Shown here one piece after another: positions 13,042 through 45,347 of a DNA stretch of 47,538 nucleotides. Positions within the stretch are counted from its first letter, which is position 1, and every line of letters starts with the position of its first letter. The position numbers were made by a program, and so were the translations under genes. Under the pieces are notes generated by a model. It was not told the origin of the DNA. It saw only the letters and a list, made by a program, of their open reading frames with translations, and searched no databases. This DNA comes from Sphingopyxis sp. (GTDB lineage: Bacteria > Pseudomonadota > Alphaproteobacteria > Sphingomonadales > Sphingomonadaceae). Location of the stretch: positions 1-47,538 of the forward strand of contig PNJO01000006.1 in NCBI GenBank assembly GCA_013821905.1, in the 5' to 3' direction.

Positions 13042-13052
13042 CATTCCCACCT

Positions 13053-13130
13053 CGTCATCCCGGCGAAGGCCGGGATCTCGCCGGTGCGGCAAAACGCGAC
13101 GATGAGATCCCGGCCTCCGCCGGGATGACG
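13053..13130. repeat. Palindromic intergenic repeat, family B (CGTCATCCCGGCGAAGGCCGG)
   Basis: Outer arms CGTCATCCCGGC (13053) and GCCGGGATGACG (ending 13130) are complementary. Each arm also folds on itself as CCCGGcgaaggCCGGG. It fills the gap between purL and the DUF72 gene. The same element recurs at 32703-32780, and a half-unit at 43336-43363. Confidence 0.85.
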
Positions 13131-13144
13131 GAGGTGTTGAAGTC

Positions 13145-13879: not shown

Positions 13880-14277
13880 CCGCGGGCTATTCGGGCACGC
13901 CGCTCGCGAAGAAACTGTCGCTCCAGGACGGGATGACTGCGTGGTTCCACGCGATGCCGACCAGCGTGCGCGAAGAGATCGGCGAGGTAGCGCTCGACGA
14001 ACGCGATGCGCCCGACGCCGGCCTGCAGGCGGCGCATATCTTCACCACCGAGCGCGCCGGACTCGCCCGTCTGCTGGCCGAATTGCGGACGCTGATCGAC
14101 CCTGCGGGCTTCGTCTGGGTCAGCTGGCCCAAGAAGGCGTCGAAAGTCCCGACCGACATTACCGAGGATGTCATTCGCGAGATTTGCCTGCCGATGGGCT
14201 GGGTCGACGTGAAGGTCTGCGCTGTCGACGCGGTCTGGTCGGGGCTGAAGCTGATGATCCGCAAGGAACTGCGCTGA
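13876..14277 (+). CDS. DUF3052-like protein
   Basis: 133 residues, cytoplasmic, no membrane segment. The motifs GYSGTPLAKKL at the N-terminus, FVWVSWPKKASKV in the middle and the C-terminal VWSGLKLMIRK match what I recall of the DUF3052 family of unknown function. The start ATG overlaps the DUF72 stop (ATGA), indicating coupled expression. A family B-type hairpin follows the stop and separates it from the convergent Coq4-type gene. Confidence 0.75.
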   Translation: MTAGYSGTPLAKKLSLQDGMTAWFHAMPTSVREEIGEVALDERDAPDAGLQAAHIFTTERAGLARLLAELRTLIDPAGFVWVSWPKKASKVPTDITEDVIREICLPMGWVDVKVCAVDAVWSGLKLMIRKELR

Positions 14278-14287
14278 ATAAAATGGA

Positions 14288-14345
14288 CCCCGGCGAAAGC
14301 CGGGGCCCATGAAGGTGCAAGATTGGGCCCCGGCTTTCGCCGGGG
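14288..14345. repeat. Inverted repeat, family B variant (CCCCGGCGAAAGCCGGGG)
   Basis: Arms CCCCGGCGAAAGCCGGGGCC (from 14288) and GGCCCCGGCTTTCGCCGGGG (ending 14345) are exact complements, and each contains its own short hairpin. It sits between two convergent genes, where it could act as a bidirectional terminator-like structure. Same variant at 37521-37600. Confidence 0.85.
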
Positions 14346-14355
14346 AGCATTCAAC

Positions 14356-15135
14356 TCAAGCCGCCACAGCCTGCGCAGCGAGGAAATTATACGGGTCGAT
14401 GCCGCGGCTGCGGTACGCGCGGTGCGCTTCCTTGTAGAGCGTCGGTTCGCCGATGCCGAGGCGCGCGCGCGCGGTTTCGAGCGGTTCGGCGAGCAGCGAG
14501 CGGATGTCCTGCTCGATGATCGCCTTGGCCGCCTTGCCGTGGCGCTGACCCTGGCGGATCGCACCCATCACCGGCGCGTCGCCCCGGACGCGGCGCTTCA
14601 GCTCATAACCGCCGGCATAGGCGATGAAGAAATTGCCGTAATTGCCCGTCTGGCCATAGGTGAAGCCGAGCACGCACTGTTCGCCGAGCGCGTCGCGGCC
14701 GTAGCCGGTCAGGATGTGGAACAGGTCGTGCGTGTCGCGCAGGCGGTTCGCATACCATTGGAGCTGGTCGTCGAACTTGGGACGGCCCATCTTTTCGCTC
14801 TCGGCGACGAGCCCCGCGGCCGACAGACCCTCGCGGCGCATGAAGGTAACATAGGCATGGCCGACGCTGTTTTCGGGCAGCGCGTCGATCCAGCCATGAT
14901 CGTCGAGCAGGTCGGGCAGATAGGGCTCGCGCTCCATCAGCTTGCGACCGAAATCGCTTTCGACGAAGGCGCGCGCGTCGTCCATGAAGCCCTTGCGCGG
15001 CAGATTTTCGAAGATGTGGAAGACCTGTTCGGTGTCTTCCTTGTCCCTGATGAGCTTCCGGAAGTGCGACAGCGCCTTGAGCGGGCGGAATTTCGCGGGC
15101 TGGCGGTCGGGATGGGAGAAAATGGTCGGGGTCAT
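14356..15135 (-). CDS. Coq4 family protein
   Basis: 259 residues. It contains the Coq4 metal-site signature: DTHDLFHILTGYGRD, with HDxxH and a following acidic residue. Eukaryotic Coq4 organises the ubiquinone synthesis complex and has been linked to decarboxylation of the ring. Bacterial homologues are common in sphingomonads; whether this one acts on ubiquinone or another isoprenoid is unknown. The open frame runs upstream, but conserved sequence starts at ATG 15135. It diverges from the DUF418 gene, with a perfect palindrome in the promoter region. Confidence 0.85.
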   Translation of the reverse strand: MTPTIFSHPDRQPAKFRPLKALSHFRKLIRDKEDTEQVFHIFENLPRKGFMDDARAFVESDFGRKLMEREPYLPDLLDDHGWIDALPENSVGHAYVTFMRREGLSAAGLVAESEKMGRPKFDDQLQWYANRLRDTHDLFHILTGYGRDALGEQCVLGFTYGQTGNYGNFFIAYAGGYELKRRVRGDAPVMGAIRQGQRHGKAAKAIIEQDIRSLLAEPLETARARLGIGEPTLYKEAHRAYRSRGIDPYNFLAAQAVAA

Positions 15136-32682: not shown

Positions 32683-32702
32683 ACGCATTTTACAACCCCT
32701 AT

Positions 32703-32780
32703 CGTCATCCCGGCGAAGGCCGGGATCCCGCCGAGGCGTCATAACGACAGGGTGAGACCCCGGCCTTCGCCGGGGTGACG
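32703..32780. repeat. Palindromic intergenic repeat, family B
   Basis: Outer arms CGTCATCCCGGCGAAGGCCGG (from 32703) and a near-exact complement ending GGGGTGACG at 32780. Each arm forms its own CCGGC...GCCGG stem. It lies between the convergent nfeD and GNAT genes. Near-identical to 13053-13130. Confidence 0.85.
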
Positions 32781-32812
32781 GAGCGAGAAAATCGGGCAGG
32801 TTCGCCGCGCCC

Positions 32813-36068: not shown

Positions 36069-36119
36069 AGGCTGGCTTTTTCCTGCCGTCCGCGCTACTG
36101 GCGCGCCGATCCCCTCATT

Positions 36120-36198
36120 CCGTTCGCATCGAGCGAAGTCGAGACGCCCCTCGGTCGTGCACTCCGACGGGTCTCTCGACTTCGCTCGACACGAACGG
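36120..36198. repeat. Palindromic intergenic repeat, family C
   Basis: CCGTTCGCATCGAGCGAAGT (from 36120) pairs with ACTTCGCTCGACACGAACGG (ending 36198) with three mismatches. The flanks CCTCA and TGAGG extend the stem. Located between tetR and obgE. Confidence 0.85.
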
Positions 36199-36233
36199 AT
36201 TTTGAGGTTTAGTTTCGGTCTCCCGCCGCCTGA

Positions 36234-37372: not shown

Positions 37373-37520
37373 GAAAGGCGGGTGACGGCGGAGAAGCGCT
37401 CTTCGGGACTGGCGTCGCGGTCATCGGTCAGGATAGATCATGGCGGGCTTTTTTAGGACAGCGCTTTTTTTGCGCAGTCGAAGGCGGGTATCGGCCCGAA
37501 GTCGCCGGTAGCGCCCGTTG

Positions 37521-37600
37521 GTGATCCCCGGCGAAAGCCGGGGCCCAGATTTGTGAGCACGGCCTTTCCTTCATGGGCCCCGGCTTTCGCCGGGGATCAC
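37521..37600. repeat. Inverted repeat, family B variant
   Basis: GTGATCCCCGGCGAAAGCCG (37521) and CGGCTTTCGCCGGGGATCAC (ending 37600) are exact complements, continuing inward through GGGCCC. Related to 14288-14345. Confidence 0.85.
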
Positions 37601-37646
37601 GGAAGGGTAGCTAGCGAGCGATAAGCGACACCCTGCGTCTCCTGAC

Positions 37647-40574: not shown

Positions 40575-41576
40575 TCAAACGTTGAAGCCCCGGACGACTT
40601 TCAGCGTTCCCGCCAAAGCCTCGATCAGGGCGACAGGACGCATGTCGCTGTCCCTTCCCCAATAGAGCCCGTCATCCGTGCTACCCCCGGTCCAGACGCG
40701 ACCCTGACGGATCGCCCCTGCCGCTTCCGGGGAAAGGTTCAGAGCCGGGATGTCGACCAGCCCTGCCTCGAGCGGCAGAATAATTTCTGATTGGGCGGCC
40801 CCTTGGCCGAAAGCGTTCAATTTGTCCAGCGAAATCGCCTGTTCGAGCGTGAAGGGTCCCGCTTTCGTGCGGCGAAGCATCGCGACATGACCGACGCTGT
40901 CGACCGCGTGCGCGATGTCGCGGGCAAGGCTGCGGATATAGGTGCCCTTCGAGACATGCGCAGTGAGGGTGATTTCTTCTAATTCCTCCCCGGCAGGGGG
41001 AGGGGGACCGTCCGCAGGATGGTGGAGGGGGGTGTAGGCCTCAGCCGACGCTTCAGGCCGCGCCCCCCCTCCGTCAGCGCTGCGCGCTGCCGCCTCCCCA
41101 CAAGTGGGGAGGATTTGAAGGGAATAGACCGTTACCGCTCTCGCCCTCATCTCGACATCCTCGCCCTTGCGCGCGCGATCATAGGCCCGCTGGCCGTCGA
41201 TCTTGATCGCCGAAAAGGCGGGCGGAATTTGTTCGATCGGCCCGGTGAAGCGCGGCAGCACCGCCTCGATCTCCGCGAGCGTCGGCCGCACATCGCTCGT
41301 CGCCACCACCGCGCCCTCGGCATCGAGCCCCGCCGTCTCGGTCCCGAAAGCGATGGTGAAATCATAAATCTTGCTGGCGTCGAGCATCCGCCCGCACAGC
41401 TTGGTCGCCTCGCCGAGCGCGATCGGTAGCACCCCCGACGCGAGCGGATCGAGCGTGCCGCCGTGGCCCACCTTGACCTTGCCCAGCCCCGCCTCGCGGC
41501 ACACGCGCTTCACCGCGCCGACTGCCTGCGTCGAGCCGAGCCCCACGGGTTTGTCCAATATGATCCAGCCGTTCAT
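40575..41576 (-). CDS. truB: tRNA pseudouridine(55) synthase TruB with in-frame repeat insertion
   Basis: Forms pseudouridine-55 in the T-loop of tRNAs. 333 residues, compared with about 290-300 for relatives. The catalytic D43 lies in [25 protein letters not shown] and [17 protein letters not shown] are intact. Residues about 154-199 ([20 protein letters not shown] and following Pro-rich stretch) are not TruB-like and are encoded by a family A palindromic repeat at 40983-41115. Reading frame and all catalytic segments are preserved, so the gene is probably functional. Next in line is rpsO. Confidence 0.95.
40983..41115. repeat. Family A palindromic repeat inside truB
   Basis: 133 bp with complementary ends TTCCTCCCC and GGGGAGGATT. 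The right half (about 41063-41115) matches the unit at 2132-2190: CCTCCCC, GGGGAGG, GGCAGCGC, AGCGCTGACGGAGGGG. The left half is the related GGGGGACCGTCCGC...GGTGGAGGGG variant. Read in frame it adds about 44 residues to TruB. Confidence 0.88.
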
Positions 41577-42067: not shown

Positions 42068-42144
42068 CGTCATTGCGAGCGAAGCGAAGCAATCCGGAGC
42101 CCGCGCAAACCGCCCTGGATTGCTTCGCTTCGCTCGCAATGACG
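42068..42144. repeat. Palindromic intergenic repeat, family D
   Basis: CGTCATTGCGAGCGAAGCGA (from 42068) and TCGCTTCGCTCGCAATGACG (ending 42144) are exact complements. The full arms run to 28 bp and end in AATCC/GGATT. It sits between the GNAT gene and the DUF6491-like gene. Confidence 0.88.
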
Positions 42145-43446: not shown

Positions 43447-44862
43447 ATGCGGCTGATGCCGGTGACCGATGCAATGTTCCTCGTCGCGGAAACGCGCGAG
43501 ACGCCGATGCATGTCGGCGGGGTCAATCTCTACACCCTGCCCGACAAGGTCGACGAAACCGAGTGGCTCAACGAACAGCTGGGCATATTGCGCCAGTCGG
43601 AGGGGATGCGGCGGCCGTTCAGCGAGGTGCTGAAACTGACGCCGCTCGGCCAATATGGTCCGATCCGCCTCGAACCCGATCGCGACATCGACATGCACTA
43701 TCATGTGCGCAGCGCCGCGCTGCCCAAGCCCGGCCGCTATCGCGAGATGTTCGAACTGGTCTCGCGCCTCCACGGCACCTTGCTCGACCGCACGCGCCCG
43801 ATGTGGGAGATCACGCTGATCTCCGGCCTGCCCGACCGCCAGATCGCGACCTATTTCAAGATCCACCATGCGCTGATGGACGGGGCGTCGTCGATGCACT
43901 TCACCAACGCGATGCTGTCGGCGGACCCCAAGGAAAAGCGCAGCTATTCGCCGATGTCGGTCGAGGCCTATGAAGCTTACAAGCGCAAGTTCCCGACCGC
44001 GAAGAAGTCGCCGACGCCGAGCATCACCGATCTGAAGGCCATCGGCGCATTTCTGAAGGAGCAATGGGGCAACAGCGTCGGGGTGACCAAGGCGCTCAAC
44101 CAATATGCCGCGGCGATGTTCGGACTCGGCGGCGGCGACCTGGCGACGCCGTGGGGCGGGCTGCCGCGCACCAGCTTCAACCGCAACATCACCGGCGCGC
44201 GGCGCTTCGTGGCGCAAAGCTGGTCGCTCGAGCGCGTGCGGGCGATGGGCAAGGCCTATGACGGAACGATCAACGACGCGGTGCTCGCGATGTGTTCGGG
44301 CGCGATGCGCAAATATCTGCAGTCGCTGAACGAGCTGCCCGACAAGCCGCTCAAGGCCATGGCGCCGGTATCGATCCGCGCCAAGGACGATATCGACGCG
44401 GCCAATTCGGTCGCGGCGGTGACCGCGAACCTCGCGACGCATATCGACGATCCGGCCGAGCGGATGGCGACGATCCAGGCGTCGATGAACGCCGCGAAGG
44501 CGCAGCTGCGCGAAATGACCGCGCAGCAGATCCAGATCTACACCGCGATCACGCAGATGCCGCAGATGCTGACCGCGCTGACGCGCACCGCCGACAAATT
44601 CCCGGCGTACAGCGTCACCATTTCGAACGTTCCCGGCCCGCGCGAGCAGCTCTACTGGAACGGCGCGCGCCTCGACGGCATGTATCCCGCGAGCATCCCG
44701 GTCGACGGCATGGCGATGAACATCACGCAGGTATCGAACAACAAGAATATCGATTTCGGCATCACCGCCTGCCGCCGCAGCGTCCCGCACGTCCAGCGGC
44801 TGATCGACTATCTGGAGGATGCGCTGGTCGAGCTGGAAACGGCAGCGGGGATCAGGAAATAA
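43447..44862 (+). CDS. Wax ester synthase/diacylglycerol acyltransferase family protein
   Basis: 471 residues. The catalytic HHALMDG (140-146) is the WS/DGAT motif HHxxxDG; the C-terminal TISNVPGPREQLYWNGARL matches the second conserved block. It transfers acyl groups from acyl-CoA to alcohols or diacylglycerol, giving storage wax esters or triacylglycerol, though some homologues have other acceptors. ATG 43447 has GGGGAGA about six bases upstream; a GTG at 43432 is the alternative. It runs opposite to the ribosomal genes around it. Confidence 0.92.
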   Translation: MRLMPVTDAMFLVAETRETPMHVGGVNLYTLPDKVDETEWLNEQLGILRQSEGMRRPFSEVLKLTPLGQYGPIRLEPDRDIDMHYHVRSAALPKPGRYREMFELVSRLHGTLLDRTRPMWEITLISGLPDRQIATYFKIHHALMDGASSMHFTNAMLSADPKEKRSYSPMSVEAYEAYKRKFPTAKKSPTPSITDLKAIGAFLKEQWGNSVGVTKALNQYAAAMFGLGGGDLATPWGGLPRTSFNRNITGARRFVAQSWSLERVRAMGKAYDGTINDAVLAMCSGAMRKYLQSLNELPDKPLKAMAPVSIRAKDDIDAANSVAAVTANLATHIDDPAERMATIQASMNAAKAQLREMTAQQIQIYTAITQMPQMLTALTRTADKFPAYSVTISNVPGPREQLYWNGARLDGMYPASIPVDGMAMNITQVSNNKNIDFGITACRRSVPHVQRLIDYLEDALVELETAAGIRK

Positions 44863-44863
44863 C

Positions 44864-44941
44864 CGTCGCCCCCGCGAAGGCGGGGGCCGCTATGAGCATA
44901 GCGCAAGGTTGCCAACGGCCCCCGCCTTCGCGGTGGCGACG
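44864..44941. repeat. Palindromic intergenic repeat, family B variant
   Basis: CGTCGCCCCCGCGAAGGCGG (44864) pairs with a complement ending CGGTGGCGACG (44941) with one mismatch. Located between the convergent WS/DGAT and rbfA genes. Confidence 0.85.
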
Positions 44942-44945
44942 ATTG

Positions 44946-45347
44946 TTACTCGCCCTCGCCGCTCTCCAGATCGCGCGCGACCTTCGGATCGCGCAGCAAT
45001 TTATCGATATGGCTCGCCTCGTCGAAGCTTTCGTCGGCGAGGAATTTGAGCTTCGCCGCATATTTCATGCGAATGCGGTGCGCGACCTCGCGCTGCAGAT
45101 AGGCGGTGTTGGTGCGCAGCGCCTTCAGCACCGCTTCCTCGTCCTTGCCGAGCAAGGGCTTCACGAAGACGGTCGCATGGCGCAGGTCGGGCGACATGCG
45201 CACTTCGGTCACGCTGACCGGATGTGTCGCGAGGACATCGTCGTGCACGTCGCCGCGCGCGAGGATTTCGCTGAGGATATGGCGCACCTGCTCGCCCACG
45301 CGCAGCACGCGGACGGAGGGGCCTTCGGACTGTTCCTTGTGGCGCAT
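44946..45347 (-). CDS. rbfA: Ribosome-binding factor A
   Basis: 133 residues. Binds the 30S subunit during 16S maturation and cold adaptation. Typical features: [19 protein letters not shown] at the start, [17 protein letters not shown] and a KH-like core with [21 protein letters not shown] 45347 has GGAGGAA seven bases upstream. It follows infB after 52 bp. truB, usually next, is 3.4 kb away. Confidence 0.95.

Follow-up and report, generated by a model that had tools for sequence, protein, structure and literature searches.

Palindromic repeats without detectable kinship lie in frame at one predicted turn of TruB, and at a second site in SufC, across Sphingopyxis

The window, that is, the whole stretch of 47,538 nucleotides analysed here, comes from a draft genome of 3.35 Mb in 362 contigs whose closest named records are Sphingopyxis. 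It carries a truB gene in which a palindromic element, assigned to a repeat family called A here, lies within the reading frame (Table 1). The identity of the gene is supported by the Pfam domains TruB_N (residues 31-159, E 6.6e-46) and TruB_C_2 (residues 215-273, E 9.1e-11), which flank the insertion site on either side, and by the TruB fold of the AlphaFold2 model, which matches RNA-bound E. coli TruB (1k8w) with an E-value of 7.6e-29. An earlier note, made from the letters of this DNA, had put the repeat at 40983-41115, and it is indeed found there, enclosed by the 333-residue frame with boundaries at 40982-41115. Its end hairpins have the form CCTCCCC...GGGGAGG, and the termini of the family read ATCCTCC/GGAGGAT. 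The note had also described building blocks in common with an intergenic copy, a frame kept with no stop on the coding strand, and the survival of the catalytic segments. All of this stands: the common material is a 35-nt block, 91% alike and inverted between the two copies, and the conserved blocks of the enzyme are intact with a Pfam domain on each side of the repeat. Might the insert reflect faulty assembly or gene calling, and the repeat go untranslated? The fragmentation of the source draft would allow for this, but conserved domains lie on either side of the insert and the single-contig genomes G020, G045 and G060 also carry frame-keeping inserts, and we regard the idea as so improbable as to be nearly negligible; for the window itself, an artefact or frame break was rejected given the domains on both sides and the frame kept in relatives.

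Table 1. Positions of truB, its family A element and other repeats in the window.
Feature	Position	Strand	Basis
truB, tRNA pseudouridine-55 synthase, 333 aa	40575-41576	minus	ORF list, Pfam, structure match to E. coli TruB 1k8w
Family A palindromic element, 134 bp, in frame in truB, ~residues 154-198	40982-41115	minus	own-genome matches, fold, absence from insert-free relatives
Element core TCCTCC...GGAGGA, 130 nt	40984-41113		
Terminal hairpin CCTCCCC-ACAAGT-GGGGAGGA, 5' end of element on coding strand	41093-41113	minus	by eye
Terminal hairpin at opposite element end, CCTCCCC-GGCA-GGGGGAGG	40985-41003	minus	by eye
35-nt block common to truB element and intergenic copy (2154-2188)	41066-41100	minus	sequence comparison
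Intergenic family A element, comparison copy	2132-2259	plus	sequence comparison, genome matches
Family C copy	13052-13133		
Family C copy	32702-32783		
Palindrome with CCCCGGCGAAAGCCGGGG arms	14275-14358		
Palindrome with CCCCGGCGAAAGCCGGGG arms	37514-37607		
Other long inverted repeat	36119-36199		
Other long inverted repeat	42068-42144		
Other long inverted repeat	44858-44947		

The coding-strand RNA of the element folds at -84 kcal/mol versus -65.2 for shuffled sequences (z -4.43), and 0 of 200 shuffles were as good. In its own genome the truB element has 62 matches at E<=10, counting itself and many partial matches, and the intergenic copy (taken as 2130-2262) has 87, with the proviso that one palindrome copy can be counted on both strands in such totals. 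The repeat is thus frequent elsewhere in the genome; its absence there, which would have refuted the earlier note, was not seen. An Rfam search returned matches below gathering scores only. To what extent is an open frame through such a repeat informative? Among 25 other own-genome copies of family A (one of 26 did not fit the end pattern), 5 have a length divisible by 3, with a remainder of 1 in 13 and of 2 in 7, and 110 of their 150 frames are free of stops. A GC-rich repeat this poor in stops would often be translatable after random insertion if its length fits, so that the open frame of the truB element is by itself weak and unremarkable evidence. Ten long frames around family A elements in other genes of the same genome were scanned; one contained a domain (MatE), with the element upstream of it, and TruB alone among the frames scanned in this genome has an in-frame copy flanked by domains. 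Many palindrome families share this genome: besides three other long inverted repeats, the window contains two further copies of a family C (CGTCATCCCGGCGAAGG), a family present in TruB of three relatives and reduced to a remnant in that of a fourth.

TruB proteins of Sphingopyxis without a recognised insert are 293-308 residues long in 17 of 17 cases and 297-300 in 11 of them, and the net gain in the window is therefore about 33-36 residues. The earlier estimate of about 44 added residues holds for what the element encodes and overstates the gain in protein length. Equal length at this place in repeat-free relatives, which would have contradicted an insertion, was not seen; they are shorter here. 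The AlphaFold2 model of the window's TruB (42 aligned sequences, mean pLDDT 82) has strands at residues 146-155 and 201-208 with a disordered segment at 158-191, and the poorer model of an insert-free relative (mean pLDDT 69) has strands at 146-155 and 165-172. Since the same strands flank the site in both models, the insert is predicted to occupy a beta-hairpin turn as a disordered loop. Throughout the relatives, inserts come after the V-T-x-x-[SATN]-L strand and ahead of the one preceding HVSKG.

TruB was matched in 115 of 119 genomes, and within the genus in 69 of 72; these 69 gave 65 readable segments, two cut by contig ends and two with a broken frame. An in-frame insert or a shortened insert is present at the turn in 48 of the 65 readable genes. 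Assigned by peptide pattern, the types are B in 21, B2 in 5, A1 in 8, A2 in 2, C in 4, D in 3, E1 in 2, E2 in 3 and none in 17, where 'none' takes in remnants and, in other genera, also possibly decayed inserts in the form of 38-41-residue loops. Among the typed inserts, one of type C and one of type D are shortened remnants (G046, G025). Inserts of types B, B2 and C start with CGTC and end with GACG, while the arms of D are of the TTCGACAAGCTCAGG type and those of E of the CCCCTCCCC type. When representatives were compared against shuffles, A1 and A2, the series B-B2-F-C, and E1 and E2 proved related, with z of at least 6 along the links. The D insert matched nothing (z <=2.5 against any family), B and C gave z <=2.3 against A or E, and A against E gave z 1.7-4.0, such that A and E may be distantly related. 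By this comparison at least three groups without detectable kinship (A/E, the CGTC-type B/C, and D) occupy the turn, and the number of unrelated groups is probably four. A single insertion that diverged was rejected for the site as a whole, given that the A/E, CGTC-type and D inserts lack kinship; changes among B, B2, C and F, which are mutually related, could reflect divergence or partial conversion instead of new insertions. In named records of other genera (Altererythrobacter, Erythrobacter, Qipengyuania, Sphingorhabdus and others) the same turn is filled by A2-, E1- and CGTC-like inserts; dispersal of the families was tested in the Sphingopyxis carriers.

Matches were present in 28 of 28 genomes tested for family B (10-64 each, E<=0.001), 12 of 13 for C (0-80), 11 of 11 for D (1-80), 12 of 12 for E (1-80) and 13 of 13 for A1 (1-45, E<=1e-8); all counts include the TruB copy and may include both strands, and high values are lower bounds, as at most 32-40 candidates per genome were scored. 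Each TruB family is dispersed in most of the carriers tested, the exception being A1 in G020, where it was found in TruB alone at E<=1e-8; G008 has only 8 matches to its family C. The G020 genome is a single contig, and its lone A1 would fit either loss of the family from other places or a foreign origin of the gene segment. Right behind the B or C element in five loci (L017, L021, L027, L015, L119) stands a GGGGAGGGG stretch that resembles the end of a family E insert and is possibly the trace of an earlier insertion.

How fast do the inserts change? On a tree of the truB flanks with 109 rows (148 loci, less 37 with identical truB DNA and then two frame-broken genes) the type changes at least 47 times. 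A tree of the unlinked purL gene from 61 genomes calls for at least 35 changes, and such counts are rough insofar as resolution in the purL tree is weak (15 of its 59 inner branches are starred). With 60 rows the purL tree requires 34 changes versus a mean of 36.2 and a minimum of 32 in 100 shuffles, so that phylogeny hardly predicts insert type. Moreover, different families are found in nearly identical genes: over 849 flank positions there are 21 differences between G013 (B) and S. terrae L137 (A2) and 30 between G030 (A1) and G029 (E2), which are purL sisters at 100/100, the sequences in both pairs agreeing closely up to a few codons from the insert. Remnants that retain one or both element ends were recognised by eye in G005, G016 and G071. 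In two genomes, both draft assemblies, truB is broken at the site: in G068 (L120) adjoining codons are missing and the junction falls at a GGGGTGACG stretch identical to a CGTC-element end, which is consistent with a deletion between truB and such an end, and in G009 (L128) the frame is lost and one hairpin is left. Overall, the frame is kept in 48 of the 50 same-genus truB genes that either are broken at the site or carry a typed insert.

A further question is whether these changes reflect fresh insertion or just one or a few entries into TruB per family, after which homologous recombination of truB segments carried the inserts from species to species. If truB segments had been exchanged in this way, pairs of genes with the same insert type might be more alike close to it. 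Within 30 codons of the insert, however, 262 same-type pairs are not more alike than 866 different-type pairs (near difference +0.016, permutation fraction 0.86; interaction 0.83; G015, G017, G043, G047 and G107 left out). Moreover, the E1 insert of G056 resembles a copy in its own genome (88%) more than it does the TruB copy of G054 (79%), and groups without kinship would need separate entries in any case. Other observations favour exchange. The A1 inserts of G000 and G020 differ by 5.9% (94% alike) versus 24% at the fourfold sites of their flanks, and G020 is the genome with A1 in TruB only. The C insert of G008 is 91% alike to that in TruB of G052 and 88% to that of G019, slightly closer than its best non-TruB matches in another genome (86%) and in its own (82%). 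A tree of 24 A1 elements places seven TruB copies, alike in length and in much of the spacer, in one half together with 5 of the 16 intergenic copies, and the TruB copy of G042 in the other half with 11. We consider exchange unlikely as the general explanation; both insertion and exchange or inheritance probably occur, with repeated insertion the larger part.

Constraint on the inserts was estimated from the rows of commonest length, which used 7 of 8 A1, 16 of 22 B, 4 of 4 E2 and 6 of 11 F inserts. Differences at codon position 3, relative to those at positions 1 and 2, give a ratio of 1.49 for A1 (p 0.06), 1.61 for B (p 0.03), 1.03 for E2 (p 0.47) and 1.60 for F (p 0.10), and the mean dN/dS is 0.52, 0.56, 0.89 and 0.58, respectively. 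The arms of B are near-invariant and its spacer is variable, and the bias in B is therefore due in part to arm conservation. These values offer weak hints of protein-level constraint on the A1 and B inserts, and frame keeping is a stronger argument than codon bias for a translated insert. As to fourfold divergence along truB, it rises from 0.278 to 0.367 towards the site over the 10-60 codons before the insert in insert-bearing pairs, and the few insert-free pairs show no rise on this side (0.331 to 0.301). On the 3' side it is higher near the site than far from it, in insert-free pairs too, and beyond about 60 codons after HVSKG it is 0.13-0.15 versus 0.23-0.42 in most other parts of the gene, with or without an insert.

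A second protein was reached through a translated B query, which led to SufC, the Fe-S cluster assembly ATPase (TIGR01978 match). Among the matches listed there were 28 long frames around B copies, 15 of which were scanned (10 with Pfam, 10 with NCBIfam, 5 of the latter new), and a domain lies on both sides of the B copy in two of the 15, both SufC (G003, G057); further genes of this kind may exist. Of the 71 Sphingopyxis genomes, 68 matched sufC and 66 were read, G047 and G021 being left out. In-frame inserts at one place (GSVxFxG/QDLL), which the sequence suggests is a hairpin turn, are present in 20 of the 66 (loci L356-L385, L386-L422); the other 46, the window's genome among them, have none, two of them with slightly longer loops. 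Five subtypes were distinguished (B in 7, a CCCCGGCGAAAGCCGGGG type in 4, its probable decayed form in 5, an E-like type in 2, and two singles), and with the decayed form set aside they fall by kinship into two groups, CGTC-like and E-like. Dispersal in SufC carriers was tested for B, and the remaining subtypes are counted as repeats on the basis of arms and kinship. The CCCCGGCGAAAGCCGGGG type, in frame in SufC of four relatives, scores z 21.9 and 18.1 against the two window palindromes that carry the same arms, at 14275 and 37514, respectively. Since several types occur at one turn of SufC, the pattern is not peculiar to TruB.

The second site bears on two further explanations. One is that a DNA feature at these truB and sufC positions attracts the insertion machinery of several families. 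Unrelated groups at the same turn in two genes would fit this, as would a GTGACG stretch (V-T codons) that is often near the truB site, equals the end of a CGTC element and coincides with the G068 junction. However, the A, D and E families have no CGTC/GACG ends, the flanks of sufC look unlike those of truB by eye, and both sites coincide with hairpin turns, that of SufC as judged from its sequence; such targeting seems improbable to us. The other is that a longer disordered loop benefits TruB in RNA binding or chaperone activity and is selected for, with the repeats as a supply. The prevalence of inserts (48 of 65 genomes) and the mild codon-position bias agree with such selection, but 17 of 65 genomes lack an insert, the inserts are unrelated in sequence, the gene is broken in two genomes and the same pattern recurs in SufC, an ATPase, all of which renders it highly improbable.

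What is seen directly is unrelated groups in frame at one turn in two proteins, shortened remnants and two broken genes. We hypothesize, and hold to be reasonably probable, that stop-poor palindromes insert repeatedly and that selection spares those that keep the frame at tolerant turns. Several GC-rich palindromic families would keep inserting across Sphingopyxis genomes, and the majority of insertions within genes would be purged. Frame-keeping, stop-free insertions at the TruB hairpin turn would survive as a disordered loop, which would be translated and nearly neutral, and they would later be trimmed or lost, after which another family could refill the site; types would thus arise mostly by independent insertions and loss, and SufC would offer a second tolerant turn of this kind. 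Tolerance alone fails to explain why just TruB and SufC turned up, with 15 of the 28 B frames scanned. A tentative alternative, which we regard as rather doubtful, is that the two turns are true hotspots at which unrelated families insert repeatedly and replace each other, so that the loops are exchangeable repeat-encoded cassettes, guided perhaps by shared machinery or a local DNA feature more than by tolerance. As for the earlier note, its observation was right, and its view of a dispersed palindromic repeat inserted in frame at a loop is borne out. Its description of the element as domesticated is not supported: with at least 35 type changes on the purL tree, two broken truB genes and a weak codon-position bias, the TruB loop looks tolerated, with fast turnover of its inserts, rather than domesticated.

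The earlier note knew of no such case for this repeat family. A literature search that covered few subscription journals and did not target family A by sequence brought up no description of several families at one site in TruB or SufC, but the novelty is narrower than the note supposed, in that TruB palindromes of S. alaskensis and E. litoralis, whose genera we take to be Sphingopyxis and Erythrobacter, are in print. The available text of Di Nocera 2013 (PMC3733652) lists, among genes that contain REPs, those for tRNA pseudouridine synthase B in S. alaskensis, E. litoralis (written 'E. lithoralis' there) and S. maltophilia, states that truB of R. conorii holds RPE-1, and places REPs in other genes of one functional category at different sites, except in recB of two Xanthomonas. 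The CGTC-tagged REPs of this kind, which have an unpaired CGTC tag at one end and an 8-9 bp stem and occur mostly as head-to-head dimers, resemble the B, B2 and C inserts of the relatives, which start with CGTC and end with GACG, but not family A with its ATCCTCC/GGAGGAT ends, and the available text of PMC3733652 contains no multi-family site. GTAG REPs carry a GTAG tag and have a RAYT gene nearby, and no GTAG end is visible in family A. The available text on ERIC, RU and other MITEs (PMC2229807) describes short non-autonomous repeats with open frames that become fused to ORFs. Inverted ends are present in the family A element; comparison with insert-free truB revealed no clear target duplication by eye, no transposase or parent transposon was identified, and the present case differs in the recurrent use of one internal turn.

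The likeness to the Rickettsia palindromic elements (RPEs) that the earlier note proposed is supported. As far as the available text of PMC3767692 and PMC2229807 goes, RPEs are palindromes of 100-150 bp that lie between genes and in frame in conserved proteins at solvent-exposed places, and the RPE-bearing guanylate kinase is translated and active (PMC2229807). Family A has the corresponding size, fold and copy number (134 bp, z -4.43, 62 matches including partial ones), and it is in frame in a conserved protein, TruB only among the frames scanned in the window's genome, with copies elsewhere; its host is nearest Sphingopyxis instead of Rickettsia or Wolbachia. Rickettsia orthologues have solvent-exposed inserts at the same locus, and in its available text the 2013 paper on Rickettsia japonica (PMC3767692) left open whether such a locus is a hotspot for insertions of different origin or holds one insert that diverged. 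Near-identical truB genes with different families, together with unrelated groups at one turn, make this question testable, and directly so in Sphingopyxis, which is free-living and has many sequenced isolates. The pattern suggests a route by which stop-poor, GC-rich selfish DNA could feed disordered segments into conserved enzymes, and some protein loops look like landing sites for it. Translated palindromes were known before, chiefly in Rickettsia; the difference from RPEs is that groups without detectable kinship share one site here and that the TruB families are dispersed in most of the carriers tested, and what is new is that, in each of two proteins, a single turn has been used repeatedly by unrelated groups of repeats.
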